Source of the DNA: a virus
Direction: 5' to 3' (one strand)
Length of the DNA: 64,000 bases
Virus record (IMG/VR): IMGVR_UViG_3300030102_006934
Span: 316,344-380,343 of that record
In this document: positions 12,191 through 61,295 of the stretch, piece by piece
Numbering within the stretch: the first letter of the stretch is position 1
How the letters are laid out: each line of letters starts with the position of its first letter
Made by a program: the position numbers and the translations under genes
The notes under the pieces: model-generated
The model's input: only the letters and a program-made list of their open reading frames with translations
Databases searched by the model: none
What the model was told of the DNA's origin: nothing

Positions 12191-12388
12191 GTGAGTATCA
12201 AAAGAATCATAAAAGAAGAGGTGGATGAATTTGATTGGGTTAAAGATGTTAACCCAAGACTACCAATATCTAAAAAAGAAATATCTTTGATTAATGAAGT
12301 TATAAATTTCCTAATTGATAATGAACAGTATGGTGATGATTGGGGTGAACATATCGATACACTTCAAAAAATAATAGACCAAGGTTAA
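12191..12388 (+). CDS. Short tagged protein, 65 aa
   Basis: Begins MSIKRIIKEEVDEFDWVKDV, a full copy of the shared tag, and then only about 45 further residues of helical character. GTG start, chosen because it makes the tag complete and sits two bases after the TATTTATTA motif. It is the first gene of a five-gene tagged operon (to 16759). After cleavage behind I-K-E it would be a small internal head protein (inference). Confidence 0.65.
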   Translation: MSIKRIIKEEVDEFDWVKDVNPRLPISKKEISLINEVINFLIDNEQYGDDWGEHIDTLQKIIDQG

Positions 12389-12390
12389 AA

Positions 12391-13839
12391 ATGAACATAA
12401 AAAGGGTTATACGAGAAGAGTTGAGTGACTTTGACTGGGTTGAAGAGATACCCAGTGTATTACCCAAAGATAGTGATTGGTGGATAATCAATGATGTTGA
12501 TCCCTATAGTTTAGAGGTAAGTGAAGAAATACAAGATTTTGTATTTAAACAAGGTTTTACTTGGATGTCGGGTCGGAAAAATTTCGTACCCAACAAGGTC
12601 GTAGCAATCTCACATCGAGGTGGAACATATGATCAACAATTAGGTAGATTTGGTTTTTACCGTCCATCTGACCATTCACCAAGTGACATAGAAAGATATG
12701 AAACAGGGAAAGATGACCTAGTTTATCGATGGAGTGAAATCGTTAAACCAATTAAAGAATCGGATGATATGGATTGGATTAGAGATATAAAACCAACAGA
12801 CCCAATCGGTGATTTCCTCATGAAAAAATTTCATGAGAAAATGGTTACTTATTTATCGTTGGGTGGTAGAAAAGGTGATGTTATTTCTAGGGAATGGGCT
12901 ACCGTTGAAGCTTTTTTAATTGAATTAAGGGAATTAAAAGAGAATGGCTTTGTTAATTTTTTAAGTAGGGTATTATTACAAAGTCATGTCGATAGACCTT
13001 ACCCACATGTCTTAAAGGCTATAGAAGACTCAGGTTTTGACGTTAATAAGTCAGAAGAAACCAAAAGACTTTATAAAATATTTCAGTCTTATAACTCTTT
13101 GGGTAATAGAATAAAAAGGACTTTAAAAAAAACTTTCATAAGAGAGAATGACCTAGATTGGATTGCTGGTGTTAGTAAAGACTATTGGGATTATTATGAT
13201 GCTGTGGTTTTCAAAAAAACATTGTTTGATGCTGAATTTAAGAAGTTTATTAACCAAGCCCTAAAATCCGTACAACCAACCAACGCTTCAGATTGGGAAG
13301 AAGATGATGAGATGAGTGATTTAGAGTACTTAAATTATAGGATTAGAAGACATGGCCAAGCTTTTATCGGAAAATACAGAGATGAAAAAGGTCGGAATGT
13401 TTTAGTTTTTGGTCAGGACCCAGATTATGAACTATACCCCCAAGTAAAGGATGCTAAAACTATAAATTACGAAGATATAAAAAAGGGGTTGTTCGAATCC
13501 AACGACTTTAGTTGGATCCAAGATATAGAACCACCGGTATTTAAACAACTAGATATTGCCACAAAAGATGATAATGATATAAACGTAAAGTGGGGTGATA
13601 ATGGGGATTTTAGTGAGGTGATAGATTCTAGTGGTCATAGGTATTTTAATCAAAGGGAATTAGGTTTATTTTTAGGTCTTTCTTATAGAAATTGGTCTGA
13701 AACTATTAATAATCTAGGGAAGTCAAATCTACTATTATATATAAAACACTTGATTGATTCTATAGAGTGGAGTTTACCAAGAGAACAGGAAGATTATGAT
13801 GATTTTATTAAATTATATAAAATAGTGGAAAAGTTATGA
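12391..13839 (+). CDS. Tagged multi-module protein (four modules)
   Basis: 482 residues. N-terminal tag KRVIREELSDFDWVEE, then internal junctions KPIKESDDMDWIRD, FIRENDLDWIAG and LFESNDFSWIQD, each [IL]-x-E followed by S or N and an F/M/L-D/S-W. Module 1 (about 27-115, with IINDVDPYSLEVS and ending VYRWSEIVKP) is shared with the products of 47845 and 54572. Other modules unrecognised. It would yield four pieces if cut at every junction. Starts 2 bases after the previous stop. Confidence 0.65.
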   Translation: MNIKRVIREELSDFDWVEEIPSVLPKDSDWWIINDVDPYSLEVSEEIQDFVFKQGFTWMSGRKNFVPNKVVAISHRGGTYDQQLGRFGFYRPSDHSPSDIERYETGKDDLVYRWSEIVKPIKESDDMDWIRDIKPTDPIGDFLMKKFHEKMVTYLSLGGRKGDVISREWATVEAFLIELRELKENGFVNFLSRVLLQSHVDRPYPHVLKAIEDSGFDVNKSEETKRLYKIFQSYNSLGNRIKRTLKKTFIRENDLDWIAGVSKDYWDYYDAVVFKKTLFDAEFKKFINQALKSVQPTNASDWEEDDEMSDLEYLNYRIRRHGQAFIGKYRDEKGRNVLVFGQDPDYELYPQVKDAKTINYEDIKKGLFESNDFSWIQDIEPPVFKQLDIATKDDNDINVKWGDNGDFSEVIDSSGHRYFNQRELGLFLGLSYRNWSETINNLGKSNLLLYIKHLIDSIEWSLPREQEDYDDFIKLYKIVEKL

Positions 13840-14366
13840 ACCTAAAAAAAATTATAAAAGAGGAATTAATTAAAGAATCTGGTGTAGAAAATTATCTACA
13901 ATCAATATCTAGTATAACTTCAGGTAATCAAAAAAAGTATTACCAATGGATTTTAGATAATCTAGAAAAAATTCCTGTTGTTAGTTATCGTTCTAACGAA
14001 GAACTAAAAGATAAAATAGATTCTTTTGTGGGAAAAATGAGACGCCGTGGTAGTTTTTGTGAAAAGAAAGGTTGTTTTGATACTGCCTATAATACAGCAA
14101 TGCATGTTCCTGGAGTTCATTATATAGAAGGTTATGTTCAATCCATGATACCTATTGTTCACGCATGGAATTATCTTCCAGAAGAAGGTATATATTTTGA
14201 TTTAATTAACGATATAGCTTGGGAAGAAGAAGATTCACACTTTAACGAATACTATAAGGTTATAGATTTAGATAAGTCAGGTGTGTTAAAATGGTCCATT
14301 GAAACTGGTTACGGTGGTGGATTCCTAGAAAGCCCAAAGTTTGTTAAACATATTTTAAAACAATAA
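13836..14366 (+). CDS. Tagged transglutaminase-like Cys-His-Asp protein
   Basis: 176 residues. Tag MNLKKIIKEELIKESG with two possible [IL]-x-E sites. KGCFDTAYNTA (C80), HYIEGYV, VHAWNYL (H109) and IYFDLIND (D122) follow the Cys...His-Ala-Trp...Asp order of transglutaminase/papain-like domains found in bacteria and phages. It may be a peptidase, amidase or transferase. It overlaps the previous gene by 4 bases. A packaged thiol enzyme is an attractive but unproven reading. Confidence 0.6.
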   Translation: MNLKKIIKEELIKESGVENYLQSISSITSGNQKKYYQWILDNLEKIPVVSYRSNEELKDKIDSFVGKMRRRGSFCEKKGCFDTAYNTAMHVPGVHYIEGYVQSMIPIVHAWNYLPEEGIYFDLINDIAWEEEDSHFNEYYKVIDLDKSGVLKWSIETGYGGGFLESPKFVKHILKQ

Positions 14367-14371
14367 TTAAA

Positions 14372-14382
14372 TATTTATTATT
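14372..14382 (+). promoter_or_regulatory. Late-type promoter motif TATTTATTA + 2 nt
   Basis: TATTTATTA (14372-14380) and TT directly before the ATG at 14383; same spacing as at 12180. Confidence 0.55.
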
Positions 14383-15408
14383 ATGAACATCAAAAGAATT
14401 ATAAAAGAGGAGATGGATGACTTTGATTGGGTTAGAAATATAGAGGTTGATACTGATTTAACCCCTGCTCAACTTTACAATAGAATTAATGATTTACCAA
14501 ATGGTATAGTTGGCCCTTATGTCGGTGAAAACTTCGCTGATATTAAGTATGAGAATGGTAGGTACTATTTAATGGTTGATGATTTTTGTGATTTTAAAGA
14601 ATGGTTTAGTGATAGAGAAAACGGTTCTCAAGGTTATTATATGAATCAATGGGCTTTTACACAAGCTTTTTGTGGAGAAGATGATTTTTTTGAACCTTAT
14701 GGTGATTTGGTTTATGATTGGATTGACCAAGTATGGGAACTTGTTGCGGGGGATGAAAAATTATATAATTATGTAGTTGATTACATTACTGAAAACTTAG
14801 TTGGGGATGAGATGAGATTAGATAATGAGGAAAAAATATTAACTTTAGAAGATGTTCTTACTTGGTCAGCTGATTCAGATGTTTTAGGAATGGTTATAAA
14901 TGAACTAGATGTTTTTGAGGATTTAAAATGGGAATTAGAGAGATCTTACGAAAATGCTTATAATACATTTGTTGTTGATAATATGTATAAAGCAGGTAGG
15001 GATGCTATCACAGATGTTGTGGGTGATGGTGAAAGAAAAGATGTAGAACTTTATAATTCATACAGTAAATCCAATTACAACGCTAATAAATTAGTTTTTG
15101 ACGTGACGAGTATGTTGTCAGATTATCTTTATGAGGCTATTGAGTATTGTATAGATAATAGATGTAAACCTTATTGGAAACCAGAGAATTATGATTTTGA
15201 ATCGGAGGGTGAGACGGAAGAAGAAGCTTTTGAAGATTTTTGTCATGAGTGTATGAATTACCCCTTTGATGACCATGGGTCTTTCCTTTCTTTTATGAAA
15301 GAAATATTAGAAGAAAATGGGGACTTATTAAATCCTAGAGTCGATGATTACCCTAGTAACGATGAGATAGAAGATTATTTTATAGAAGACGTACATGGAA
15401 GATTCTAA
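14383..15408 (+). CDS. Tagged acidic protein, 341 aa (duplicated with next gene)
   Basis: Tag MNIKRIIKEEMDDFDWVRN, then a long acidic domain with LTPAQLYNRI, VYDWIDQVWELV, ADSDVLG and DLKWELE. The whole domain recurs as the second half of the next protein, so the pair is a tandem duplication. No known fold recognised. Very acidic overall, which suits a protein that must lie beside DNA-free surfaces or mimic DNA; that is speculation. Confidence 0.6.
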   Translation: MNIKRIIKEEMDDFDWVRNIEVDTDLTPAQLYNRINDLPNGIVGPYVGENFADIKYENGRYYLMVDDFCDFKEWFSDRENGSQGYYMNQWAFTQAFCGEDDFFEPYGDLVYDWIDQVWELVAGDEKLYNYVVDYITENLVGDEMRLDNEEKILTLEDVLTWSADSDVLGMVINELDVFEDLKWELERSYENAYNTFVVDNMYKAGRDAITDVVGDGERKDVELYNSYSKSNYNANKLVFDVTSMLSDYLYEAIEYCIDNRCKPYWKPENYDFESEGETEEEAFEDFCHECMNYPFDDHGSFLSFMKEILEENGDLLNPRVDDYPSNDEIEDYFIEDVHGRF

Positions 15409-16759
15409 AAAAACAAATTTAAAATTAATTATACGAGAAGAGTTGGATGACTTTGATTGGGTCAGAGACGTGAATACCAATCAAGATATCGCATTAGACA
15501 TTGTTAATAAAACTAAATTTTTTGTGTTAGACGGTAGTTTAAGGGTAGACCTACCTTTTATGAGTTATTATGAAGGTTATCCAGTGAAACAGTTATTTAA
15601 CTCCTCGTCATTACTTAAAAGTAATAGCCCTACTATTATGTTCCTTAATTACGTTAGCCAAAATCATGGGTTTGAAAGAACCGACTTCATGGCCAAATAT
15701 AACATAAACGCAAATGTACGTGATATATGGTTTAGGTATAAAAATTTAATGACACAAAAAGTTTTAGACAACCTTAAAGATAAACCAATTAACGAATCAG
15801 ATGACTTTGGTTGGGTTAGGGATATAAAGATTGATTATGATTTAACTCCTGCTCAGTTTTACCATAGGTATGAAGGTAATTTACCACTAAAATTTGTAGG
15901 ACCACTAATAGATAATGGATTTATTGATATAGACTATGATGGAGATGAACTTTATTTAAAATTGGAAGACGGTTGGTGTGATTTAAAATCACTTTTTACG
16001 GAACATGATACCAGTTCTTCTCAAGGAGCATACATTAACAAAAGTTTAGTTAATAATTTATATTGTGATGAGGATTACTTTGAACCATTCGATGGGATAG
16101 TTTATGATTGGGAAGATCAAGTTTGGGGCCTTATAACTCAAGATGATGAACTATATAAATACATAATAGACCATATAAACGAAAATATTGTGGGTTACCA
16201 AATGGATTTTGAGGGTGAACAAAGAACTCTAACTAAGGAAGATATTCTTGAATGGTCTGCCGACTCCGATGGGTTGGGTGAAGTCATCAATGACTTGAAT
16301 GTTTTTGAGGATTTAAAATGGGAATTAGAACTTTCTTATGAAAATGCTTATAACAATGTAATTAGAGATAATATTTACGAATCCGTTAGAAAAAGTGTTG
16401 AGGATTATCTTGGTCCGGCTGATTGGTATGGTAATGTTTTAACTTTTAAAGTAACTGAACCTCTTTTAGAACTTATAGGTAATGAAATTGGTGATTGTTG
16501 GGAAAACTGTAAACGACTTTGGGATCCAAAAGAATATGAAGATACTTATATGATGTTCAATAAAACCGAAGAAGAAGCTTTTGAGGAATACTGTGGTTCT
16601 TGTTTTGACCACCCATTTGATTCATATGGTTACTTTTTGGATTTCTTTAGTGAGTACTTATCTGAAGAAGGGGAATTACTAAACCCAAGGCTTGATGAAT
16701 TCGCGTCAGATGCTGAAATGTTACCATATTTTAAAGACGAGGTCTATTCTAGATTTTAA
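15395..16759 (+). CDS. Tagged two-module protein, 454 aa
   Basis: N-terminal tag LKLIIREELDDFDWVRDV, a short first module of about 115 residues, the junction KPINESDDFGWVRDI, and then a module homologous to the whole body of the upstream protein (LTPAQFYHRY, VYDWEDQVWGLI, ADSDGLG, DLKWELE). It overlaps the upstream gene by 14 bases. The junction therefore separates an added module from a duplicated one, good evidence that it is a true domain boundary. Confidence 0.65.
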   Translation: MEDSKKTNLKLIIREELDDFDWVRDVNTNQDIALDIVNKTKFFVLDGSLRVDLPFMSYYEGYPVKQLFNSSSLLKSNSPTIMFLNYVSQNHGFERTDFMAKYNINANVRDIWFRYKNLMTQKVLDNLKDKPINESDDFGWVRDIKIDYDLTPAQFYHRYEGNLPLKFVGPLIDNGFIDIDYDGDELYLKLEDGWCDLKSLFTEHDTSSSQGAYINKSLVNNLYCDEDYFEPFDGIVYDWEDQVWGLITQDDELYKYIIDHINENIVGYQMDFEGEQRTLTKEDILEWSADSDGLGEVINDLNVFEDLKWELELSYENAYNNVIRDNIYESVRKSVEDYLGPADWYGNVLTFKVTEPLLELIGNEIGDCWENCKRLWDPKEYEDTYMMFNKTEEEAFEEYCGSCFDHPFDSYGYFLDFFSEYLSEEGELLNPRLDEFASDAEMLPYFKDEVYSRF

Positions 16760-22334: not shown

Positions 22335-22829
22335 ATGAATATGAAAAAAAGAGTCGTAAAGTTTAATGAGTCGGATCTAGAAAAAATTGTTCAAAAAATA
22401 CTAAAGGAAGAGGGTGAAGAAAGAAGTTCACGTTATATGTTCTTTTCTAACTTAGAACAAATTCATAGACAAGCAGCCATGTTGTTAGAGATGGATGAAG
22501 ATATGTTGGAACAAATCTTAAATAACGGTCATGATTGGGCACAAGATCACATATCAGAAGCTAAAAATAACATGGACCAAGTATTTGATTTCATTATGAA
22601 TAAAATCAAAGAACCCCAAAACGTTTCTGTTGATGAGGGTAGTAATTTAAAAAATAATAACTTAATCTCAGAGAGTGGTAAAAACTGTGCAGACACAGAA
22701 AAGGGTTGTATTAGAAAAAGAAAGTCTGGTTGGGTTATTTTAAATAATAAAAAAGGTGGTGTTTGGAGAAAATGTGACTCCAAAAAACACTGTGAAGAAA
22801 TATTAGATGCGTTTCACGCTAGTAAGTAG
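22335..22829 (+). CDS. Tagged protein, 164 aa
   Basis: N-terminus RVVKFNESDLEKIVQKILKE, followed by EGEERSS: a tag of the K-I-L-K-E kind. An internal junction NNLISESGKN (about residue 110) separates a helical middle from a C-terminal basic module with four cysteines (CADTEKGCIRKRKSGW, CDSKKHC). Function unknown. First gene of the largest tagged operon. Confidence 0.6.
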   Translation: MNMKKRVVKFNESDLEKIVQKILKEEGEERSSRYMFFSNLEQIHRQAAMLLEMDEDMLEQILNNGHDWAQDHISEAKNNMDQVFDFIMNKIKEPQNVSVDEGSNLKNNNLISESGKNCADTEKGCIRKRKSGWVILNNKKGGVWRKCDSKKHCEEILDAFHASK

Positions 22830-24293: not shown

Positions 24294-25129
24294 AAACAAT
24301 AAATGAGGAAATAAATAGGATTAAACAGATAATGGGACTTCTAAATGAAGAAGGAAAACAGTATGGTACAATACTGATATTTGGACCTCAAGGTGTTGGT
24401 AAATCCACAATCACAAAACCATTAAGTAAAAAACTTGGGATGGAAGTTATTGGTACTGATGATTTTATTAATCAAGGTGACTGGCAAAGTCAAGAAACGA
24501 AAAAGAAAGGCTGGGAAAAAAGAAAAGAAAATGAGTTTACAGGTATGGTCAGTTTTTTAAAAAACAATTTAGGTAAACCAGTTATTTTAGATGTAGGTGG
24601 TAGTCATGGTGTGTGGGAAAAAGACCATTTAATAGAAATTATGAAATTAATATCAGATTATCCTAATAGATTTTTATTGTTACCCTCAAAAGATATGGGA
24701 AAATCAAAAGAATTTTTAAGACGTAATATGTTAAACAGAGAAAAAGGGATGGAAGGTGCTATTAAATACTGGGAAGCGTTATTAAAACAAGACGACAATT
24801 TCTCTAAAAACTTTAATGGTGAAGATAAAGTGGACTGGGACAAAAGAATGGAACGTGTAAAAAGTGGTGATGAAAGTGAAGCCAAATTTTGGATTAATAA
24901 AATGCAAACGAGACTAGATTTAATTAAGTCAGGAAAAGTAACATGGGATGAATTTGATATTAACGATGATAAAACTTTAATCAAAAAATCAGACCCCACC
25001 TATTTTGAAGATTATACTCAGTATTTCATAGAAAACATGAAAAAGTCTGGGATTGGGAATCATGTGATTTATAATTTAGGTAAAGAACAAGAATCATTAG
25101 TTGATGAAATAATAAGCAAATTAAAATAA
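24290..25129 (+). CDS. Tagged P-loop kinase-like protein
   Basis: 279 residues. Tag MKTINEEINRIKQIMGLLNE then EG. Walker A GPQGVGKST (32-40) followed by KPLSKKLGMEVIGTDD, the layout of shikimate/gluconate-type small kinases (DxD after strand 2). FLLLPSKD and KEFLRRNMLNRE fit the lid region. Substrate unknown. A kinase carrying a head-targeting tag would be delivered with the DNA (inference). Overlaps both neighbours by 1-4 bases. Confidence 0.65.
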   Translation: MKTINEEINRIKQIMGLLNEEGKQYGTILIFGPQGVGKSTITKPLSKKLGMEVIGTDDFINQGDWQSQETKKKGWEKRKENEFTGMVSFLKNNLGKPVILDVGGSHGVWEKDHLIEIMKLISDYPNRFLLLPSKDMGKSKEFLRRNMLNREKGMEGAIKYWEALLKQDDNFSKNFNGEDKVDWDKRMERVKSGDESEAKFWINKMQTRLDLIKSGKVTWDEFDINDDKTLIKKSDPTYFEDYTQYFIENMKKSGIGNHVIYNLGKEQESLVDEIISKLK

Positions 25130-25554
25130 TGAAAAATTTAATTAAAAAAGTATTGAAGGAGTCGATTGGTGGTAATTATTTTTATTTAATAACTACTAAA
25201 GATGGTAAGTATTATTTCAACGAAGGTTATGAAACTTTTGATGCTAAACACGAATTAGTCCCACTAGATGGTACACTTGATTATGATGAGTTGGATAGAC
25301 TACATCAACCAAGTCGAGGAGGTGGTTATCTCTATCAATCAAGAGAAAGAGCTGAAAAATCTTTAAAAGCTAAAATAAAATGGTATGAAAAAATTAGAAC
25401 TGAAATGGAAGATGAGAATTATCAGCAGGATGAGTTTTTCGATAAACCAAGAAGAGCTTTGATTAATCAAATGGAGGACTTAGGTTATACATGGGATGAT
25501 TTAGAAGTTAAAGAATATTATTTAGGTTTAATACCAGCAACAACAAGTATATGA
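25129..25554 (+). CDS. Tagged protein, 141 aa
   Basis: Tag MKNLIKKVLKES, then an alpha/beta domain with a Tyr-rich N-terminal half (NYFYLITTKDGKYYFNEGYE) and SRERAEKSLKAKIKWYEKI. Family not recognised. Overlaps the next gene by 4 bases. Confidence 0.6.
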   Translation: MKNLIKKVLKESIGGNYFYLITTKDGKYYFNEGYETFDAKHELVPLDGTLDYDELDRLHQPSRGGGYLYQSRERAEKSLKAKIKWYEKIRTEMEDENYQQDEFFDKPRRALINQMEDLGYTWDDLEVKEYYLGLIPATTSI

Positions 25555-25883
25555 AAAACTTAATTAGACATATATTATTAGAAGAAGCTAGTAAAGTAGA
25601 ATACCAAGTAAGGGATATTGGTGGTCCTACTTACTATAAACGCCATAAAGGAGAAAAATGGACTTTTACAGATGAAGTAGATTTTTTCAAAAACTCTAAT
25701 AGAAACAATCTAGTTAAATGGGTAGAAAAGAAGCCGAAAAAAGGACCATTCGTTAGACAAGTAGAGGTTCCCCAAGAAGATACTGATACTTTGAAATATT
25801 TAAAGGTATACTACCAAAATTTATCCCCTAATGATTATTCGGTGAAAATTCAAGGTGAAGAAATTATTATTAAAGCAAAATGA
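25551..25883 (+). CDS. Tagged protein, 110 aa
   Basis: Tag MKNLIRHILLEEASK, then a small beta-rich basic domain ending in YSVKIQGEEIIIKAK. Family not recognised. Overlaps the next gene by 4 bases. Confidence 0.6.
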   Translation: MKNLIRHILLEEASKVEYQVRDIGGPTYYKRHKGEKWTFTDEVDFFKNSNRNNLVKWVEKKPKKGPFVRQVEVPQEDTDTLKYLKVYYQNLSPNDYSVKIQGEEIIIKAK

Positions 25884-45800: not shown

Positions 45801-47627
45801 CACGGTACAAACATTAAATTCTATATAAACGCTACACCAACTCAAGAACAAGCTGAAAAGATTTGGGATTTATTAATTGATGCGGGTGTAACTGATTCGG
45901 CTAAAGTTAAAGAATACAACAGGGTGTATAAGTTGATGAGGGGTAGAGGTACATTTATGATGATTGACCACGATGGTGACTTTATGTATAATATTGATAA
46001 CTTATCTGAGTACGTTAGAAATGGAAGAATTAGTTCTGGTAATATTATTAATTTTACAGACATTTTTTCAGATGATGAACCTGATGATTATATAAAAGAA
46101 TCTAAAGATTTTGAATGGTTAGATGATGTACCACTAACTCTTAACCATATTTTTAATGAGTTAAGTATTGGTGATGAGTTAACCCTAAAGGGCAATACTT
46201 ATGGTGCTCATCTAAATATGCAACATTTTAAATACACAGAACCTTTTACAATTACGATACAATCAATCGGACCTAGATTAGAAGATTCTGATTTTAAAAT
46301 ATCAGTTAGAGAAAAGGAAGCTATAGTTAACTTAGGTATAAAACATAAGGGTGAACTACTTAAAAAGTACCCAAAATTTCATGTGTTTTCAAATAATTCG
46401 TTTTTTCCAGAGGATGGCGATTTAGAAGTTGTTTCTTGGGTTAAATCTGAAGATAAATTAGAAGAGTCCTCACAAGATTGGGATTGGGCCGAAACTCCAG
46501 AAGTAATCATAGGGGGTAAAAACGGTTTACCAAAAGAAAGTGTTCCTTTAGGTACTAAAGTGGTGAATTATGATGGTGACATATTCACCATAGAGGATAT
46601 TACTGGAGGGTATATGGATTTCCAACATGTATGGGGTAGTGACCAAAAGACAGCTTGGTTGGGTCCTAAAGATGATGAGGATAATAAAAATTGGCATAAT
46701 ACCTTATGGTTAAGAAAAGCAACTTCTGAAGATTTAAATGAATCTGAAAATGAGTGGGACTGGGCAAAGAATATAGTTACTGATGGTTTAGATCTTAAGT
46801 TTAGTGAAGGGATGTGTTTACTTAGGAAAGACGGTACTCGATGGTTGGTAGTGGATACACCGAAACACGCTTCAAAATCCACAACATTAGTTTGGCTTCA
46901 ACGAACTCACACAAATGGGATAGATATAACTGAAAAAAAGAGGCCAATCTCACCCTTTAGAGAATCAACTCTTTCTAGGCAAATACAAAGTGGTGATATA
47001 ACAATCTGTAATAAACCTTTAAAGGAATCCGATGACTTTGATTGGGTTGATGATATTGATGCTGTAGACCCTAAAAAACCTAAGCCTGGTTATGTTTATA
47101 ATTGGAGTGGTTATAGTGATATAATTGATGATGATGAGGTGCTAACCGATACCATAATTATTACAAAAATAAAGGGTGATGACGAATGGGTTAGTGGGGG
47201 TTTTGAAATTATGTTTGTTCCAGAAGGTACTTCTCCCAATTCCGAAGATGCGGTTCATAAACAAGTTTTTGATAAATTAGTTGATAAGGGTGAAATTCAA
47301 TTTCTTCACAAATTAGATACTGATATGGTTAATGAATCTAAAGATGATTTTGATTGGGTTAGAGATACAATACCTGTTGAACTAGAAGACCCTCAATCTT
47401 GGGTCGGTAGGTCCTTTGGTTATGGTCCTGAAATAGTAGATAACATGGATGGAGCGGAACTAGCAATGGGTGATGATAAGGAATATTATACTATAGATAG
47501 TATTGATGGAAATGGTAATTTAGCTTTAACGAGGCACCACCCCAATAGAAGAAGCATGAGTGATAGTAGTACTTCAGTTATTTCTTTAAGAGATTATATT
47601 AGTAATGGTAGATGGGTATGGGTTTAA
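42891..47627 (+). CDS. Tagged polyprotein-like protein, 1578 aa
   Basis: Starts GTG 42891 or ATG 42894: SIKKILKEYNNFDWINDI. Nine internal junctions of the form [ILV]-x-E-S lie near residues 123, 678, 826, 954, 1070, 1192, 1284, 1379 and 1482; eight are followed by D/E-x-[FWL]-[DE]-W or close variants, for example LKESDDFDWVDD and INESSEGLEWIRD. The last eight modules are about 90-150 residues. Several end in an h-x-x-G-x-[IW] pattern such as LIRLGIWVL and RDYISNGRW. Residues 135-660 match the 54572 protein (LEGIIISNNIYVPNK). Inference: a head polyprotein cut by the prohead protease. Confidence 0.7.
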   Translation: MMSIKKILKEYNNFDWINDINPISPHIENIVGKKLRHRDNNLAHIPNHNDLSKIKDGGVLLLKPKMDYYFVVDRIDRITNEVIIKIFPKRKSRYKQEEVRYSISDMENLIRLGIWVLDDSIEESDNTIVEEEEIGLDNDENISQEEIDYINKEYGSLRDRENIKNTLKNPPFNFNPSQIRNGSINTYVVRYIVSKEGNKGNKDVFVKEKFENFLDKVNSVLGTNYKNSSGYRELTSSAKPKKQGALTQRQILVHNFNMSKEAIESWLQVKQNNQRVVGQKNLRQPKTQEEIDTNLTKLIDYLAKTKLSEIILSLDGLLEKFGLSRDDKSKNDAIPKKDEIVKQLIDEFEQNLRVKFYLNYIGGNVVDQRSNWATFVRYSKAIKKIIENSELPKDLGIDFKNSKNYKRLKDLFEKIKEKEYCYIFSENCELSSSDIEKVMDFFGKKYENSFLTKGFKKDTNRGLESRIHNLDMVGYNFSEKIKSKDFNADEIYNYITKNIKNYLDNTETIVKYDLLAKGERKDNKGNIIIPNEGKVEVKDINYLDSYLSEFLASPVKRAEYGVKDDPKYLKRYNEVVDRVYTYLTENYKEIIISKIQEGLEGIIISNNIYVPNKKNNIKFYLSDIGRSNPKKQRRITVRYEINESNWENFYIIDDNGVLQPLDEDTKKVLRYKGEKISESNDIDWIKDAYKTEWTFDDIAQLYYAGDVEAVKIVRFKDLKHLRGAIEWCLGEDAELDFFNEFKVGNIRQILSTNLDIDGQISHNNFTVSDLDCGWCLDDPDSIGYNCNERPKTMSLRVDGQIFEDSFAFSEDWVELEPIMKSDEINESSEGLEWIRDVVPDDSVRFDKDKLYYFNPPLNHDEIINLMNRIPNESKYTQTKKWFDRVFGGRAPQRYMTYFNVDGGDRNDGKFYVSGWCSETRWSQVNDEYYPHSEPVNGRDEFFGHYKISEEKVSESKDDFDWARDVNPNPFHGTNIKFYINATPTQEQAEKIWDLLIDAGVTDSAKVKEYNRVYKLMRGRGTFMMIDHDGDFMYNIDNLSEYVRNGRISSGNIINFTDIFSDDEPDDYIKESKDFEWLDDVPLTLNHIFNELSIGDELTLKGNTYGAHLNMQHFKYTEPFTITIQSIGPRLEDSDFKISVREKEAIVNLGIKHKGELLKKYPKFHVFSNNSFFPEDGDLEVVSWVKSEDKLEESSQDWDWAETPEVIIGGKNGLPKESVPLGTKVVNYDGDIFTIEDITGGYMDFQHVWGSDQKTAWLGPKDDEDNKNWHNTLWLRKATSEDLNESENEWDWAKNIVTDGLDLKFSEGMCLLRKDGTRWLVVDTPKHASKSTTLVWLQRTHTNGIDITEKKRPISPFRESTLSRQIQSGDITICNKPLKESDDFDWVDDIDAVDPKKPKPGYVYNWSGYSDIIDDDEVLTDTIIITKIKGDDEWVSGGFEIMFVPEGTSPNSEDAVHKQVFDKLVDKGEIQFLHKLDTDMVNESKDDFDWVRDTIPVELEDPQSWVGRSFGYGPEIVDNMDGAELAMGDDKEYYTIDSIDGNGNLALTRHHPNRRSMSDSSTSVISLRDYISNGRWVWV

Positions 47628-47844: not shown

Positions 47845-48888
47845 ATGGATTCAGAAAAAAAAGAAGGTAAAGTTTCAAACGATTTTGATTGGGTAAAAGA
47901 TGTTAAAGCAAGACTACCTTTAAGAGTTGGTACTTGTTTAACTTTTAAACACTCAAAAGAGGAAGAAGAATGGGTAGAAGATGAATACGGTAACATGATT
48001 GACCACGGTAAAATGAACTGGCATATCACAAGTAAGTTTATAGATGTGTATAATGACGATAAACCAACCTTTTCAATGGTAGCCACAGATAGAATGGGTG
48101 AAAGTCGTCAAATTTTTATGGAAGTGGAAAAGGTTAAAGAATTGTATGAGGAAGGTGTTTATGAGCCTTGTAAAAAACAGCCATACCTAAAAAGAGTAAT
48201 GAAAGAAGAATCCGATGATTTTGATTGGGTTGAGGATGTTTCCAACACTTTACCCAGAAATGATAATTGGATGTTAATTAACGATGTAGACCCTGATTCT
48301 TTGGAAGTGTCTAAAGATATACAAAATTACCTATTCAGTAAGGGTTTGTTTTGGAATACAGGTAGAAAAACCCCATTGTATCAACGTATATTAGCGATAC
48401 ACTATGTCTTACCACACCGAATACATAGTGGTAGCTTTACCTACGTACCTAATAGTATACCTCATGAAAAAGCAAGATTAGAAGTTGAGTATGATAGGGA
48501 AGAACTTCTCAAAAAAGGAAAACATGTTTACTATTGGAGTCAATTAAAACCAGAAAAAGATAATATCAAAGAATCAAAAGATTTAAAATGGATCGAAGAT
48601 ATTGATTTTACAGACCCTAAAAAACCCAAACGTGGTTATGTTTATGATTGGAAGGGTTATAGTGATAGTGTTGCTAATTTAGGATATCAGTTAGGTGAAA
48701 TTGGGGATATTATAATTATTAAAGAACCATTTAGCAACCCAAGTCATAGGTACCCCAAGTGGAAGATGCATTACTTCGATACTTTAAATTTTGATTGGGG
48801 TGAAGAATTAGATGGTATTTCTGAAATTGAATTCAATAGAAAAATAGATGACGGTACCATAACCTACCTATACAAGTTAGGTCAATAA
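47845..48888 (+). CDS. Multi-module tagged-family protein, 347 aa
   Basis: Starts MDSEKKEGKVSNDFDWVKDV: the D-F-D-W part of the tag without the helix. Junctions RVMKEESDDFDWVEDV (about residue 117) and DNIKESKDLKWIEDI (about 247) split it into three modules. Module 2 (MLINDVDPDSLEVS, ending YYWSQLKP) is shared with the 12391 and 54572 proteins. Module 3 (DPKKPKRGYVYDWKGYSD) is shared with the 42891 protein. It may be a continuation of the polyprotein. Confidence 0.65.
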   Translation: MDSEKKEGKVSNDFDWVKDVKARLPLRVGTCLTFKHSKEEEEWVEDEYGNMIDHGKMNWHITSKFIDVYNDDKPTFSMVATDRMGESRQIFMEVEKVKELYEEGVYEPCKKQPYLKRVMKEESDDFDWVEDVSNTLPRNDNWMLINDVDPDSLEVSKDIQNYLFSKGLFWNTGRKTPLYQRILAIHYVLPHRIHSGSFTYVPNSIPHEKARLEVEYDREELLKKGKHVYYWSQLKPEKDNIKESKDLKWIEDIDFTDPKKPKRGYVYDWKGYSDSVANLGYQLGEIGDIIIIKEPFSNPSHRYPKWKMHYFDTLNFDWGEELDGISEIEFNRKIDDGTITYLYKLGQ

Positions 48889-52082: not shown

Positions 52083-52715
52083 ATGAGTATTAAAAAAATT
52101 ATAAGGGAAGAGTTAGAGTCAATGGTTTATTCGGATAAGATTAAGCCCAAACACAAAAAAAAGATGAGTCGTGAACTTAAGTTTTTTAAAGACTTCCCTA
52201 TTCGAAAATTTGCTAATATACCACCACCTAAAAACGAATCCATAGAAACTGAAGAAGAAATAGATTATTTAGAGAGTATACCAGTTAGTAAAAAATTTGT
52301 GGACGTGGCAGATGAATTCGAAGATTACTTTGGTGAATTTCTTAAAATTAGAGGATTAAAATACCCAAAGAAAGAATTATCAGAATTAATAGAAGAGACT
52401 AAAACAATAATTCTAAAATTAAAATACCACTATAACAGACCAAGACCATACCAAATAGCTAATGAAAAAAATATGTCTTTGAATTCTGAAGATTTAGCAT
52501 CAGCTAAAACACCCTCTTACCCATCTGGACACGCAACACAAGGTACTTTTATTAGTCGTTATTTAGCCGATTTATACCCAAAATACGAGAAAGAACTTTT
52601 AGACATGGGTGAGGATATCGCTTTTAGTAGAAATATGGCAAAAGTACATTACCCAAGTGACACTGAGTTAGGTAAAATACTTGGTAATGATTTGTATGAT
52701 TATCTAGGAAAATAG
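52083..52715 (+). CDS. Tagged PAP2-type phosphatase
   Basis: 210 residues. Tag MSIKKIIREELES. The three PAP2/acid phosphatase motifs are present: K114-x6-R-P (KYHYNRPRP), YPSGH (146-150) and SR-x5-H-x3-D (S182, R183, H189, D193). Such enzymes hydrolyse phosphomonoesters through a phospho-His intermediate. No membrane helices, so it resembles soluble class A phosphatases. A packaged phosphatase could act on lipids or nucleotides on entry (inference). Confidence 0.75.
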   Translation: MSIKKIIREELESMVYSDKIKPKHKKKMSRELKFFKDFPIRKFANIPPPKNESIETEEEIDYLESIPVSKKFVDVADEFEDYFGEFLKIRGLKYPKKELSELIEETKTIILKLKYHYNRPRPYQIANEKNMSLNSEDLASAKTPSYPSGHATQGTFISRYLADLYPKYEKELLDMGEDIAFSRNMAKVHYPSDTELGKILGNDLYDYLGK

Positions 52716-52773: not shown

Positions 52774-54060
52774 ATGAACTTAAAAACCATCATTAAGTCA
52801 GAACTATTATTTGAATCTTTGGAAGATAGGTTAAAATCTGCCTATCGAAAATGGTGTAAAAAAATGAAATTAAAAGACCAAGACACCCTTGATGATATTA
52901 AGAATGCTGATGGTTATGTAGAAGAACTTGATGTATATGCAGAAGAATTTGAGGACCCTCACAGTAAAATGTACCAAAAAGTTGAAGAACTATACGCCAA
53001 GGAAGATTATGAAGGTATACATAATTTGATAGCTGACCACCAATGTAGGGATTTGTATATTGGTGCAGTATTTAAAGATTGGCTTTCTTATAGGAACCTA
53101 ACAAAAAGTTCAGATATATTCCAATATAAAAGTGAGAGAGAACTTGCGGGGGAGTTAGAGGACGCAAAAGAGAAATCATTTACCAAAAAGTTAAAGAAAG
53201 CTTCAGAGGGTGAAGATTTTGATAAAATTTGGGAGAATGATGATATGTTGATTGTTGTCCCTAAGTCACACGTTGGAGCTTGTAAATTTGGTCAGGGTAC
53301 TAAATGGTGTACCGCTAGTAAAACTGGTAATTACTTTGATCCTTATTATAAAAAAGGTATCTTATATAGGGTACTACAAAAAAATGATAATTATAAAGAA
53401 TTGTTCTCTAATTTTCAGATGAATAATAAGTTAGTCTCTGACATTGAAAACCTAAGTAAAGTCTCCATAAATCTAAGAAGAAAACAAGACTCTATGTCTA
53501 TGGTGGATAAAGTAGATTATGCTTTTGGAAATAAATCAACTTTAGAGTTTTTAAACTCCTTACCTAGTGAAGGTTATAAAGCCATTAAAAATTACCATAG
53601 TTTAAACGAACAAAGTATAAAAAATATTATAAGAGAAGAGTTGGATGACTTTGATTGGGTTAAAAATACTAACCCAATTCCAAATGAAATTTTAGACATA
53701 AGTAAGTACCGAGATGGGAATTATAAATTTTGGTTGGGAGATATATCAAAAGAAACTCAACTACAAATATTGGATTATATAAGTGAGGTGATTAGGGGTG
53801 ACGATAATTTACATACCAATGGTACATTGTATGAAGTTCGTAAAAGGGTGGATAAAAATTTAGTCTCTATTAATTCACTTTTTTTTGAGATTAAACAGGT
53901 TGGCTTAAAAAAAGGAATAAATTTATCAATAATGGGTTGGTACCCAAATGACCCACATTTTGAAAGAGAAGAAAGATTAGAATATTGTAGAAATTATTTT
54001 TATCAAACGGATGATATAAATTTGTCTGATGTAGATTTGGGGGAACAAAATAAAATTTGA
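52774..54060 (+). CDS. Tagged protein with G-x-W-C domain and an internal full tag
   Basis: 428 residues. N-terminus NLKTIIKSELLFES has site L-F-E followed by S. HVGACKFGQGTKWCTASKTG (about 168-187) is the Trp-Cys domain shared with the 8759 and 27648 proteins. At about residue 280, SIKNIIREELDDFDWVKNTN is a complete N-terminal tag, basic helix included, inside the protein. The last module (about 140 residues) therefore looks like a once-separate tagged gene fused in frame. Confidence 0.65.
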   Translation: MNLKTIIKSELLFESLEDRLKSAYRKWCKKMKLKDQDTLDDIKNADGYVEELDVYAEEFEDPHSKMYQKVEELYAKEDYEGIHNLIADHQCRDLYIGAVFKDWLSYRNLTKSSDIFQYKSERELAGELEDAKEKSFTKKLKKASEGEDFDKIWENDDMLIVVPKSHVGACKFGQGTKWCTASKTGNYFDPYYKKGILYRVLQKNDNYKELFSNFQMNNKLVSDIENLSKVSINLRRKQDSMSMVDKVDYAFGNKSTLEFLNSLPSEGYKAIKNYHSLNEQSIKNIIREELDDFDWVKNTNPIPNEILDISKYRDGNYKFWLGDISKETQLQILDYISEVIRGDDNLHTNGTLYEVRKRVDKNLVSINSLFFEIKQVGLKKGINLSIMGWYPNDPHFEREERLEYCRNYFYQTDDINLSDVDLGEQNKI

Positions 54061-54183: not shown

Positions 54184-54564
54184 ATGAAGAAAATAATAAA
54201 AAGAATTTTAAGAGAAGAATTCAATGATTTTGATTGGATTAAGGACACTGGTGGTGATAAATATGTCCCTATAAGAGTTATTCTCAATAAGCTTGATGAG
54301 ACTTATTATGGGGAAAATCCTAATGAAATTCTAGAATACGAAAATGTTTTCAAAGTACCATTAGAAGATTTTGTGAGAATTACAAATAGTACGAATTATA
54401 CAGACGAGGAATATGAGATTATTACCCCAATAGGTCATAATTTACTTAATTATGCTTATGATTGTGAACTTAATCCATTTGTTTGTAAAGAAATTGATGA
54501 TTTTTTCGATACGGAGGTTGACGAATATATTGAGGGTATAGTATTATTGGATGATAATTTTTAA
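54184..54564 (+). CDS. Tagged acidic protein, 126 aa
   Basis: Tag MKKIIKRILREEFNDFDWIK. The body is acidic (YYGENPNEILEYENV, KEIDDFFDTEVDEYI), about the size of one module of the polyproteins. Its tag DNA is closely similar to the internal tag near 56225 in the next gene. Family not recognised. Confidence 0.62.
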   Translation: MKKIIKRILREEFNDFDWIKDTGGDKYVPIRVILNKLDETYYGENPNEILEYENVFKVPLEDFVRITNSTNYTDEEYEIITPIGHNLLNYAYDCELNPFVCKEIDDFFDTEVDEYIEGIVLLDDNF

Positions 54565-54571: not shown

Positions 54572-57157
54572 ATGAGAGTTTTAATAAATAAAATATTAAA
54601 AGAGTTACATAGTAAAAGTATTATTAAAAAAGTACTTAATGAAAATTACCAGGACGAAAATATATCACAAGAAGAAAAAAATAGTATCATTGATGAGTAT
54701 GGGTGGTTAAAAAATGAAGAAAAAATTGAAAGTATTTTAAAAAACCCGCCTTTTTCAAAGAAAACTAGGACCTATAGAATAGTTAATAGCTATAGGGTTA
54801 GGTATATTATATCTAAGGAAATAAAAAAAAATGTATATTTTAATAACGCGGGTTGGGCTAACTTTGTAAAGAAGGTGGGTCAAGTAATAGGCTTAAAAAT
54901 AAAAGCAACAGATGATACCGTTTCAAAATTCTTTAAAAATATCGATGAGACCAAAAAATATGGTTTAGAGGGGAAACATTTAGAAGATAGAAAAAATACT
55001 TCCACGGAGTTAAAAAAGAATTGGAATAAAATAGACCCTGAAGTATACGAAGAAAGAATAGAACATACTATTAATTATTTAAAAAATACCAATATTACAG
55101 AATTGGAAAATTCAAAGACAAGCTTATTGACACGGTTTTCTTTAATACTAAGATACCAAGAAGAAATAATGAACTATCTTATTGATTATTTTAAAGATGA
55201 CCCAAAAATAAGGTTTTATCTTAGTTATCTTAATAAAGGTGGAAAATATTGGGGTACACTTGTAAAATACCAAAAAAAACTAAGTAATGTGCTAGACAAC
55301 CCTAATATTAGTGAAAAATATGATGACATTGTAGAAATGAAAAAATCATATAAGGCTATTATTGAAGAAGAAGCACCTTATTTGTTTAACGAAAAGGGTA
55401 ATTTTACTAAAAAAGAAAAGGAAATATTAGTAAATTGGTTTAATTTAACAAGTTATGAACATTCTTTCACAGAATTAGGGTTTTATAAACCAGAAGGAAA
55501 AGGTGCGGAGTCTTTAATACATAATCTACACAGTGCAGGTATTAGATACAATGTTAGTAATGAAATAAAAAATAATACTGATACTGATGACGTTGTAAAA
55601 TTTGTGATAAACAATATTATTAATTATTTAAAAAACACAAAAGATATAATTAAATACGATATTGTTAGTAAAGATACTATAAAAGATATTAATGGAAATG
55701 AAGTGATTCCAAAGGGTAGTAAAATAGAGGTTAAAGACATTAAGAATAGTGATAGTTATTTTGCTGAATTTTTATCATCACCTGTTAAAAGCGGTTCAGA
55801 AATATTGAATAATGAAGTTTATAGAGGAAGGTATAATAAAATAATAGAAGGAATTTATAATTGGTTATCTAACGATAGTGTGGGTATGGGTATTAAAAAT
55901 ACTATTAAGTGGTTAATGACTAACGATTTAGAAGGTATAATAATATCTAATAATATCTATGTCCCTAATAAAGATGGTAACATTGAATTTTATTTATCTA
56001 ATATTGGTCAAAACAACCCAAAAAATCATATAAGAATTACAATAAGATATAATATTAATTTAGATAAATCGAAAAATTTCTATAAAATAGGAGATGGTAA
56101 GTGGAAATTAAACGGTAAAGCATCCAAAAAAGGTATTCTTTACCCACTACCAGAAACAGAAAGTAATTTAATAAGACCCATAGAGAAACAAATTTATAAA
56201 ACAATAGAAGAATCTAAGACTAAATCTACAATAAATAAAATATTAAAAGAAGAATTCGATGATTTCGATTGGATTAAGGACACTTTTACCGAACTAAACA
56301 AAAGTGAAAAATGGATGTTGGTTAATGATATAGACCGTGAGAGTATATCGGAAGGTCATGAAATACAAAAATATCTATTTGACTTGGGTTATAGTTGGGG
56401 TACTGGTGATTTAAAAAATTCACTAAAAGATTTTTGTATCTATACAATATATCATTTCGGAAATATTAGAAATGATGAACACTTATATTACGGAGATGGT
56501 TGTAGAAGTGCTGATATAAGAATTTCAGATAAAGATATTAAAAGTGGTGAACATATAGTTTATTATTGGAGTGAGTTAAAACCTAAAACAATAAAGGAAG
56601 AAAACGATTTTAAATGGATTGATGAACCAAGAAACAACCCATTAGATGGTTTAAGATTAACAACACCTATGGGTAGAGCTGGTAGTGGTGGTAGTGGTTT
56701 AACAATAAAAGACGATGGTGGTACATATGTTACTGTTACCTCTTCTAACGGTTCTAGTGAATATCATAGGGGTACTGTTAAAAACTTTATAAGAATGGGT
56801 ATTTGGTTACCAATAGATTCTATGAATGAATCAGATGATTTTGATTGGGCGAAAGAAATAAAACCAACGTTGAATGTTGCCTTTGAAGAAGGTCTGATTA
56901 AAGCGGGTGATATTTTGACACTTTCTGGGGAACTAATGGATGATGAAGGAAGACACACAATACAAGTTTCAGATTTTAAAATAAAAATAGATCAAATATA
57001 TGGGCCTAATAGTGTATATAGAGACATCACCAGTTCTCTTTTCATACCACTACAAGAAAAATATTTCAAACACTTAGGTTATTATGAAAATGAATTTAAT
57101 GATTCTATCAGATTTGCTAAGAAAGATGGTGAGTTAGAAATATTAGATATATCTTAA
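54572..57157 (+). CDS. Tagged polyprotein-like protein, 861 aa
   Basis: The N-terminus has two tags in a row (MRVLINKILKEL and SIIKKVLNENYQ). Residues about 25-540 match residues 135-660 of the 42891 protein (ENISQEE, LKNPPF, SEFLSSPVK, LEGIIISNNIYVPNK), with some identical DNA. A complete internal tag, INKILKEEFDDFDWIKDT, lies near residue 560. Then come a MLVNDIDRESISE module, the junction KTIKEENDFKWIDEP, a Gly-rich module, and SMNESDDFDWAKEI before the last. Like the large gene, it reads as a protease-processed polyprotein. Confidence 0.68.
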   Translation: MRVLINKILKELHSKSIIKKVLNENYQDENISQEEKNSIIDEYGWLKNEEKIESILKNPPFSKKTRTYRIVNSYRVRYIISKEIKKNVYFNNAGWANFVKKVGQVIGLKIKATDDTVSKFFKNIDETKKYGLEGKHLEDRKNTSTELKKNWNKIDPEVYEERIEHTINYLKNTNITELENSKTSLLTRFSLILRYQEEIMNYLIDYFKDDPKIRFYLSYLNKGGKYWGTLVKYQKKLSNVLDNPNISEKYDDIVEMKKSYKAIIEEEAPYLFNEKGNFTKKEKEILVNWFNLTSYEHSFTELGFYKPEGKGAESLIHNLHSAGIRYNVSNEIKNNTDTDDVVKFVINNIINYLKNTKDIIKYDIVSKDTIKDINGNEVIPKGSKIEVKDIKNSDSYFAEFLSSPVKSGSEILNNEVYRGRYNKIIEGIYNWLSNDSVGMGIKNTIKWLMTNDLEGIIISNNIYVPNKDGNIEFYLSNIGQNNPKNHIRITIRYNINLDKSKNFYKIGDGKWKLNGKASKKGILYPLPETESNLIRPIEKQIYKTIEESKTKSTINKILKEEFDDFDWIKDTFTELNKSEKWMLVNDIDRESISEGHEIQKYLFDLGYSWGTGDLKNSLKDFCIYTIYHFGNIRNDEHLYYGDGCRSADIRISDKDIKSGEHIVYYWSELKPKTIKEENDFKWIDEPRNNPLDGLRLTTPMGRAGSGGSGLTIKDDGGTYVTVTSSNGSSEYHRGTVKNFIRMGIWLPIDSMNESDDFDWAKEIKPTLNVAFEEGLIKAGDILTLSGELMDDEGRHTIQVSDFKIKIDQIYGPNSVYRDITSSLFIPLQEKYFKHLGYYENEFNDSIRFAKKDGELEILDIS

Positions 57158-59481: not shown

Positions 59482-59499
59482 ACCAAAACAAAGAAGATA

Positions 59500-59598
59500 A
59501 TGAAAGATAAACACAAAGCATTTGTATATGGATTTATACTTGCTAGTATAATGTATTTTATAGCAGGTTGTATGATAATAGGTGTATATTTTAAATAA
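59500..59598 (+). CDS. Tiny membrane peptide, 32 aa
   Basis: MKDKHKAFVYGFILASIMYF then IAGCMIIGVYFK; one helix. Preceded by AAACCAAAACAAAG. Confidence 0.48.
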   Translation: MKDKHKAFVYGFILASIMYFIAGCMIIGVYFK

Positions 59599-59616
59599 CT
59601 AAAAACATAAACAAAG

Positions 59617-60004: not shown

Positions 60005-60176
60005 AGACTTTGATAAGTGGGAAGAAAGAGCAAAGAAAAACACAGAAATCATTGAGCAACAACAAACCAAAACAAAGATGGGTAAAGAAGAAAATACGGG
60101 TTGTTTTGAAACATGGTTAGGAATCGTAGTCTTTTCCATAATAATGATATTAATAATGATGATAAACGAATATTAG
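59997..60176 (+). CDS. Small protein with C-terminal membrane helix; contains internal start at 60078
   Basis: 59 residues if read from 59997 (MSKDFDKWEERAKKNTEIIE). A leader repeat lies in frame at 60064-60080, so a 32-residue protein (GKEENTGCFETWLGIVVFSI...) can start at 60078. That shorter form is nearly the same as the 30-residue product at 62922. So this frame is a soluble prefix fused through a read-through leader to a duplicated membrane peptide. Confidence 0.5.
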   Translation: MSKDFDKWEERAKKNTEIIEQQQTKTKMGKEENTGCFETWLGIVVFSIIMILIMMINEY

Positions 60177-60207
60177 TGAATACAAGGTATTTTTTATACT
60201 TAGATAA

Positions 60208-60218
60208 TATTTATTAAT
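60208..60218 (+). promoter_or_regulatory. Late-type promoter motif TATTTATTA + 2 nt
   Basis: TATTTATTA (60208-60216) and two bases before the ATG at 60219; it marks a late unit inserted among the small early-type genes. Confidence 0.58.
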
Positions 60219-60974
60219 ATGAGAAAGATGGGTAGAATAACCGAAAAAGATATCAGTAGACTTATTAGTATTATAAGAGAAAATAATGAATTAAAGTCTG
60301 ATAATCAAGATTGGGGTTGGTTTGATCGATTTGGTTTTGGTAAAGGGGATTATACAGAAGAAAAAACTCAAAAAGAACTAGAGTCTCTTAGATGGAAAAA
60401 TGTTAAAAGTGGTGATGTATTAATAATACACCCAGATGATAGAACAACCGATTTTCTTAAACCGACTTATTCTGACTTGGATGCTACTATTCTAACACAA
60501 TCTAATGAATTCTTTAATCTAGCGGAAACCATGAAAAGACATAATAGAATTATTATGATGGGCCATGGTTCACCAAGTGGTTTATTTATGCCAAAAGTAG
60601 AGGGTATAGAAGAAGATGAAAATGGTGAGTTATTCGAGTACACTGATTACGCAATCAACAACTCATACGCTGATATTTTAAGAGAAAAACGTACTGTATG
60701 TGTTTGGTGTAATGCTGATAGATATGTTGTACCTAATGATTTACATGGTTTTTACACAGGGATGGCTATTTCAGAACTTTGTGAAGCCGATTATTGTGAT
60801 GTTAAAGGGTGTAACCCAAAACAACTAGAAGAATCAAATACTAAGTTTACAATGGGTTTAAAAGAATCGTTAAAAGTAGATGGACCAGGTTCTGTAAATA
60901 TCTTCAAAGAAATTTATAATAACCCAGAAAACCCTATCATGGTCTATAATAGAAAAAGACTTTATTATAGATAA
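60219..60974 (+). CDS. Tagged protein, possible caspase-like cysteine peptidase fold
   Basis: 251 residues. N-terminus ITEKDISRLISIIREN then DNQDWGWFDR: a basic helix, I-R-E followed by N, and a D-W-x-W segment, a variant tag. RIIMMGHGSPSGLF (H116) followed by RTVCVWCNADRY (C161/C164) recalls the H-G...C order of caspase/CHAT-type peptidases, where His ends one strand and Cys the next. The match is only motif-level. Starts at 60219 by motif spacing; ATG 60228 is possible. Confidence 0.5.
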   Translation: MRKMGRITEKDISRLISIIRENNELKSDNQDWGWFDRFGFGKGDYTEEKTQKELESLRWKNVKSGDVLIIHPDDRTTDFLKPTYSDLDATILTQSNEFFNLAETMKRHNRIIMMGHGSPSGLFMPKVEGIEEDENGELFEYTDYAINNSYADILREKRTVCVWCNADRYVVPNDLHGFYTGMAISELCEADYCDVKGCNPKQLEESNTKFTMGLKESLKVDGPGSVNIFKEIYNNPENPIMVYNRKRLYYR

Positions 60975-60986
60975 TAAAAAGAAATT

Positions 60987-61295
60987 ATGGGAAGAATAGA
61001 AAGACAAAAAGTACAGTTAATAAAAGAAGCTAATAAAAGGATATTAAAAGAGGGTGAGGGATTAGATTTTCACTTGGAGGAACTTTCCGAGTTTGTGATT
61101 CATTTGAAAAATAAGGCGTATGACAAACATGACGAAATTAGTCATGATGAACTCACTGAATACGATATACAGAAAATAAAAGAGATACTACAAAACGCCA
61201 AAGAAGATAAAACATTGAGTGCTGATGAGATGATCATTGTTAGTAAATATGGAGAAGGTATAATTGATAGAATCAATCAAAAATCAGATAAATAA
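60987..61295 (+). CDS. Tagged helical protein, 102 aa
   Basis: MGRIERQKVQLIKEANKRIL then KEGEGLDFH: two [IL]-K-E sites. Otherwise charged and helical. It shares MGRI with the upstream protein and is in the same late unit. Family not recognised. Confidence 0.55.
   Translation: MGRIERQKVQLIKEANKRILKEGEGLDFHLEELSEFVIHLKNKAYDKHDEISHDELTEYDIQKIKEILQNAKEDKTLSADEMIIVSKYGEGIIDRINQKSDK

Follow-up and report, generated by a model that had tools for sequence, protein, structure and literature searches.

Why should some 25 viral genes, whose products differ in most other respects, begin with the same short peptide? The question is raised by a stretch of 64,000 nucleotides (hereafter the window; bases 316344-380343) of a giant phage, the 380,343-bp virus record IMGVR_UViG_3300030102_006934. 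A first-pass annotation had listed 25 genes there whose products start with a short basic helix ending in [ILVMF]-x-E, and had read this N-terminus as a signal for head targeting and protease processing. The answer that we consider likely is that these genes encode capsid-targeted precursors and polyproteins, which the prohead protease would cut into internal, probably injected, head proteins. It also seems fairly probable that this internal-protein arsenal of a tailed phage is built as modular polyproteins, with up to about nine units behind a single N-terminal address, that the capsid-maturation protease separates the units in the prohead, and that a unit can readily change from a stand-alone gene to part of a polyprotein or back.

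Together with the window, about 188 kb of the 380-kb genome was read in chosen stretches, with open reading frames (ORFs) called mechanically. Window genes are named below by their start position in the window and other genes as stretch:position; L004, for example, is the genome stretch 145001-165000. Coordinates given as ranges in the window are on the plus strand, and a slash marks a predicted cut.

An N-terminal tag on mostly unrelated bodies

All 25 listed ORFs exist where they had been placed, each with [ILVMF]xE in its first 36 residues. By itself this motif was rejected as a criterion for the tag. It also lies near the start of 53 of the 74 other window ORFs, and a test based on it is weak for that reason. 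The tag was defined strictly as a basic stretch (at least three K/R and at most one D/E) that ends in [ILVM][ILVMF]xE within the first 24 residues, and expected counts were derived from internal windows of the same proteins. By this definition it is present in 14 of the 102 window ORFs (0.7 expected) and in 13 of the 141 ORFs read elsewhere in the genome (0.56 expected). The related record G028 has it in 25 of 102 ORFs against 0.83 expected, and the head region of the 484-kb uncultured phage LR756508 in 17 of 67 against 0.28, the head-region genes of the latter being tagged without D-F-D-W, the motif discussed below. As a family, the tagged proteins thus greatly exceed chance expectation, but the 25 listed genes are uneven, and some 15 of them are strong taken one by one.

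The bodies had been described as otherwise unrelated. This is mostly so, but three pairs are related: 14383 and 15395; 42891 and 54572, with about 600 residues in common (E 4e-74); and 8759 and 27648, whose bodies are visibly alike. A short N-terminal peptide common to unrelated bodies characterises proteins with a T4-type capsid-targeting sequence (CTS), and it is found here in the window, in other stretches and in relatives. The N-terminal sites have L or I at P3 and E at P1, the prohead-protease motif [LI]-x-E that also occurs in the capsid propeptide and in T4 proteins; the search pattern itself demanded the glutamate.

Internal sites and predicted polyproteins

DFDW (strictly, D[FW][DESG]W[VIAT]) was said to come often after the tag. 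The motif or a relaxed form of it follows in 9 of the 25 listed genes and is missing from many tags. In the 57,903 residues of called genes that were searched, 39 strict DFDW motifs are seen against 0.25 expected from composition, and 38 of them have [ILVMF]xE a few residues before. The N-terminal occurrence is real, but 25 of the 39 motifs in the DNA read are internal. All 25 internal motifs follow [ILVMF]xE, against a background of 16%, and so do 9 of 10 in relatives. A relaxed regular expression gives about 60 sites in 27 ORFs (mean of 3.3 in shuffled proteins, none in reversed ones).

The internal sites split long ORFs into units of about 90-130 residues. In L007:36, cuts are predicted at 41, 150, 338, 448, 576, 707, 817 and 1069, and the same layout is found in the independent record G028, which also has an S77 protease (for example L109:9058, with cuts at 9, 114, 210, 325 and 445). 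Since the same cut motif and DFDW recur at internal junctions, there are two sides to the finding: a targeting tag and polyproteins that are predicted to be processed.

Several such ORFs lie in the window. The gene at 12391..13839 encodes a four-unit polyprotein of 482 residues with the tag MNIKRVIRE/ and predicted cuts after 9, 123, 252 and 369, giving units of 114, 129, 117 and 113 residues. A two-unit polyprotein (15395..16759) has a tag ending in LKLIIRE/ (cut 15) and one internal cut at 134 (PINE/SDDFGWV). The largest (42891..47627; 1578 residues, tag SIKKILKE/, cut 10) has predicted internal cuts after 678, perhaps 826, 954, 1070, 1192, 1284, 1379 and 1482, and 54572..57157 (861 residues, tagged) after 560, 676 and 753. 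In these last two, the common module of about 600 residues precedes the first internal joint and has no Pfam or PHROG match. The ORF at 52774..54060 has two units, and its junction at residue 288 (SIKNIIRE/ELDDFDWV) resembles a whole tag. In 25880..27568, whose N-terminal tag had been called degenerate and is so in our view as well, Pfam places a GP88 domain at residues 69-290 and an L5_gp82 domain at 446-556, with the junction LKE/DDFSW at residue 348. Exceptionally, 47845..48888 (cuts 121 and 243) has DFDW at its start and no targeting helix. The same holds for L110:4725, and each of the two lies close behind a tagged polyprotein gene.

A prohead protease and its predicted cut motif

The first-pass annotation had proposed a search of the rest of the genome for a gp21-like prohead protease and a scaffold, and candidates for both were found. 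There is one Peptidase_S77 gene, at 151810 and listed in L004 as 6747-7478 (E 4.5e-29; 99 bits against a curated cut-off of 27), in which GEL[ND]HP and SSRGxGS are invariant with T4 gp21. The scaffold-like protein adjoins it and is so called by its acidic composition, position and N-terminus only. Around the protease, in L004, are also terminase and portal genes (named by eye, from position and resemblance), a gp23-like capsid protein gene and a run of tagged genes. Two of these are directly 3' of the protease and begin MKMKKRIVKLNESDLELLVKKIIRE/EE and MNIRKIIKE/ELLKEVGG; five follow the capsid gene, and a tagged SprT-like gene is on the opposite strand. Stretches L005 and L008 have no tags in 36 genes. 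This genome thus encodes the S77 protease, scaffold-like protein and gp23-type capsid protein that go with a T4-type CTS. The head-targeting and processing interpretation is supported to that extent, but as a purely N-terminal picture it is incomplete. In LR756508, the S77 profile matches twice in a single 576-residue frame (L015:6481-8205), possibly an enlarged or interrupted protease.

Relatives were recovered with the capsid protein as query and with a DNA pattern for DFDW. In 75 of them, the capsid propeptide ends in [LI][ILM]xE followed by A, S, T or N, with mostly N at P2; the pattern used demanded [ILVM]xE and was fitted by 75 of 80 loci, so the invariance of P1 is conditional on it. 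The capsid cut sites of Flavobacterium phage immuto (QIVSE/A), Microcystis phage Mel-JY01 (QLISE/A) and T4 gp23 (SFLTE/A) align directly. Among the T4 sequences used for comparison, IPII and IPIII start with MKTYQEFIAE/A and gp24 with MAKINELLRE/S.

A further connection to the head genes is found upstream of the starts. The element ATATTTAT, mostly 12-27 nucleotides before the start codon, precedes the terminase, portal and protease genes. Among operon leaders, it was counted before 15 of 21 that are tagged and 30 of 111 that are not (p = 2e-4); since one of the genes had been entered twice, the tagged count is 14 of 20. This distribution fits late co-expression of the tagged genes with the head genes. 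The element, likely a promoter, is seen upstream of the late-type genes L004:279, 2459, 4373, 6747 and 16427 as well as many tagged genes, and its reverse complement nearly matches the late box of T4, TATAAATA. The T4 late promoter TATAAATA itself was considered and rejected, being upstream of none of 27 tagged genes.

A basic, amphipathic N-terminus might also be a helix that targets a membrane or compartment of the infected cell, with no link to the head and an incidental glutamate, and tagged genes do occur far from the head module. This is highly improbable, given that tags are concentrated near the protease and capsid genes in two lineages, that their genes have the promoter-like element in common with head genes, that the glutamate site recurs inside ORFs where there is no helix, and that no tag is found on those window proteins that can be recognised as cytosolic enzymes (thymidine kinase, thioesterase and epimerase).

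One address and many joints

N-terminal and internal sites differ in what precedes the cut. Of the 50 N-terminal sites, 40 have a recognisable helix, compared with 4 of the 76 internal ones. At the former, it is a fixed amphipathic basic helix with I at P7, K or R at P6 and P5, and I at P4. The mean net charge upstream of the site is +2.5 at the N-terminal sites and -0.14 at the internal sites. Internally, what is kept is the cut motif [IL]-[NK]-E/S alone: L/I at P3, N/K at P2, E at P1 and S at P1' in 49 of 76.

A few internal joints still resemble whole tags (52774 at 288, 54572 at 560 and 47845 at 121). These are expected if tagged genes fused into polyproteins and the internal helices then decayed while the cut sites were kept; we infer this direction of change from the joints.

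The likeness of the tags might alternatively reflect recent paralogy from one ancestor, with no selection on a signal. Some bodies are indeed paralogous, notably eight copies in record G029. Against this, bodies are mostly unrelated, and four homologues of L004:7917 with only 38-41% overall identity have residues 1-20 nearly unchanged. In addition, the cut site persists at internal joints where the helix is absent, which indicates selection on the site. Paralogy as the whole explanation is therefore hardly credible.

The DFDW motif had correctly been described as no part of the T4 signal, yet it goes with cut sites generally. It was rejected as a general component of head tags, since it is absent from most relatives found with the capsid protein. 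The tags of other phages lack it, so targeting does not generally require it. DFDW would stay on the unit after the predicted cut, and it is predicted to be disordered in the one unit that was modelled.

Exchange of units

When the first 16 residues are removed, the bodies fall into about 20 families and 47 singletons, and many of the families mix stand-alone and internal members. For example, the stand-alone protein 14383 (14383..15408; 341 residues, MNIKRIIKE/EMDDFDWV) has 45% identity over 335 residues to the C-terminal internal unit of 15395 (E 7e-105), and 52774 has a C-terminal unit with 47% identity to the stand-alone L006:6503. Homologues of the first unit of 12391 are found at internal positions in 47845 and 54572. 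Of 76 alignments that start internally, 48 do so within 12 residues of a predicted cut, compared with 12% for random positions.

Known domains are distributed in the same way. GP88 and L5_gp82, which flank a junction in 25880, are encoded apart in Mycobacterium phage AN3, as its genes 92 and 88, and GP88 is an untagged protein of 244 residues in cyanophage S-SRM01. In the G028 counterpart of 25880, another segment lies between GP88 and L5_gp82. In L003:13353, phrog_36119 covers only residues 25-243, that is, the part before the junction. The cut site and the DFDW linker would form a standard joint, which would make units mobile between polyproteins and genes that stand alone. In record G029 (L115, L116 and L117), eight paralogous tagged or internal units of about 120 residues have one common body, which is a recent amplification.

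An AlphaFold model of the last unit of 54572, built from five sequences (score 71.5), predicts a compact beta domain with its first eight residues disordered. Fold searches with this unit gave no significant match (best E 0.13 in the PDB and 0.03 among viral models), and therefore no function is claimed for any unit.

These results bear on whether the joints are cut at all. The long ORFs could be ordinary tandem-domain proteins in which [ILV]xE-S-DFDW is an uncut interdomain linker or a first strand, even if the N-terminal version is a head tag. The site is always tied to DFDW in this phage, the units resemble repeated small domains, and cleavage of the joints is a prediction from sequence. 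However, the bodies that follow the motif belong to many unrelated families, the 47 singletons included, so that no single domain fold explains the common glutamate. The joints have the consensus of the capsid propeptide site, the stand-alone versions of these bodies come after a tag of the removable type, and the first eight residues are predicted to be disordered in the usable unit model. Uncut linkers are thus an unlikely explanation.

Proposed processing of the precursors

Cleavage in the prohead, the reading that we prefer, would proceed as follows. The basic amphipathic helix would dock the precursor to the prohead core, and the gp21-type S77 protease would cut after the glutamate of [ILV]-x-E, both at the N-terminus and at every joint. 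The freed bodies would stay in the head, be packaged with the DNA and probably be injected, by analogy with T4 internal proteins; targeting, cleavage and presence in the virion are likewise modelled on that system. In the polyprotein format, there would be one helix at the start, each joint having only [IL]-[NK]-E/S and a flexible acidic linker with D-F-D-W. The weakest step is the role of DFDW, which probably either makes up the exposed P' side of the cut site or lets the protease or core dock.

Several points weigh against this proposal. Firstly, cleavage and virion location are both predictions. Secondly, several of the listed tags are weak alone, namely 8759(-), 22832, 24290, 27648, 30772, 36575, 52774 and 60219, and [ILVMF]xE is commonplace in any protein, as the other window ORFs illustrate. 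Thirdly, the multi-unit ORFs 47845, L007:36 and L110:4725 start without a helix, which the simple model does not explain, and most of the relatives with the protease lack DFDW. Finally, the regular expressions for the junction and the W motif were tuned on this genome, though they also held for other genomes, and a single-sequence AlphaFold model of the four-unit 12391 is uninformative (predicted local distance difference test score, pLDDT, 37.6).

Comparison with known systems

Polyproteins cut by proteases are known from animal and plant RNA viruses. No earlier description of this format for tailed-phage head cargo was found in the literature searched, and none of the papers found on phage polyproteins and prohead proteases describes cutting between units of cargo. 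Single-query searches of viral contigs with 12391 and 14383 found no relatives, and no isolates with DFDW polyproteins are known in the collections examined. Flavobacterium phage immuto (NC_055915), which has the protease and tags of a related kind, was the nearest isolate among those found. The Jug-phage paper (PMC12363816) holds no N-terminal or proteomic data that bear on the tag, and a literature search found no paper on virion proteomics of phage immuto.

One of the closest parallels is T4, where the internal head proteins IPI, IPII, IPIII and Alt are processed by gp21. Both systems have an N-terminal peptide of about ten residues that ends in [IL]xE, diverse cargo bodies, an S77 protease in the head operon and a gp23-type capsid protein with the same cut motif. 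In T4, a peptide of about ten residues is enough for foreign proteins to be targeted and processed (PMC9958956, citing Mullaney and Black 1996), and the internal proteins serve in anti-defence or takeover (PMC3012670, PMC9026906). Unlike T4, which has few cargo genes, there are dozens here, and cargo is also encoded as multi-unit polyproteins. The helix is basic (IKKI[IL]KE) in contrast to MKTYQEFIAE in T4, and DFDW comes after the site. No homology to the T4 CTS MKTYQEFIAE was found: by eye, only the length and the terminal IxE are in common, so the tag is described as CTS-like in its working and is not assigned to the T4 CTS family.

Phages and conjugative elements also have polyvalent proteins, which combine many effector-like domains in one polypeptide (Iyer et al. 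2017, PMC5512222). They are expected to enter the host with the DNA and to be separated proteolytically, a step ascribed to a built-in zincin-like metallopeptidase domain (PMC5512222). Several distinct domains per polypeptide are likewise present here, as GP88 and L5_gp82 in 25880 and as exchanged units. In contrast, Pfam finds no peptidase domain in 12391, 25880, 42891, 54572, L007:36, L003:13353 or L006:14340; the joints match the prohead protease site, and the units are mostly uncharacterised.

The giant phages phiKZ and SPN3US have many internal head proteins, some of which are cut after glutamate by a prohead protease (PMC5694885, PMC10052503, PMC9026906). Unlike the protease proposed here, theirs cut S/A-x-E and are only distantly related to gp21, and the cuts found described for them remove propeptides.

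If the proposal is true, it provides a sequence rule for picking, among the many unknown genes of a giant phage, those for head cargo, which is probably delivered at the very start of infection. The rule marks about 40 ORFs and about 60 cut sites with units in the half of the genome read. It would also mean that a capsid-maturation protease can serve as a polyprotein processing enzyme, and a standard joint would explain the shuffling of the arsenal and offer a route to loading multi-protein cargo into a phage head.

Other tagged genes of the window

A 65-residue ORF has SIKRIIKE/ followed by E-V-D-E-FDWV (tag at 12191..12217), with the promoter-like ATATTTAT just upstream. Tags are also found on a 176-residue protein that lacks DFDW (MNLKKIIKE/E, 13836..13862) and at 25129..25161 (MKNLIKKVLKE/S). 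Stand-alone tagged proteins are encoded at 29113..29877 (MKNLIKKILKE/DFNPEDFEWV), 29878..30444 (MRKLIKKILVE/SDWDWI), 30447..30782 (MKHLIRKILNE/GDFDWV, with a homologue in G028) and 54184..54564 (MKKIIKRILRE/EFNDFDWI). A PAP2-superfamily protein (52083..52715) has the tag SIKKIIRE/E, while 60219..60974 has a weaker one ending in ISIIRE/N and the ATATTTAT element upstream.

Two genes have other types of tag. The second type, MNMKKRVVKFNESDLEKIVQKILKE/EGEE, is at 22335..22829 and is the type of the gene directly 3' of the prohead protease; the third, MGRIERQKVQLIKEANKRILKE/GE, is at 60987..61295 and is like that of genes downstream of the capsid gene. In phage immuto, two N-termini that recur on different bodies probably represent further tag types: one like MENFDLKKFLVENKLTxNSKILKE (L011:7632, L011:8633 and L012:1803), and MKKQILSEQFxRMQxLAGIITE (L011:1676 and L012:25061).

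Between the tagged genes, window positions 50616-51842 encode an M43 metallopeptidase of secreted type that has a Por_Secre_tail sorting domain at its C-terminus. Por_Secre_tail is a signal for the type IX secretion system of Bacteroidota, which suggests a Bacteroidota host.

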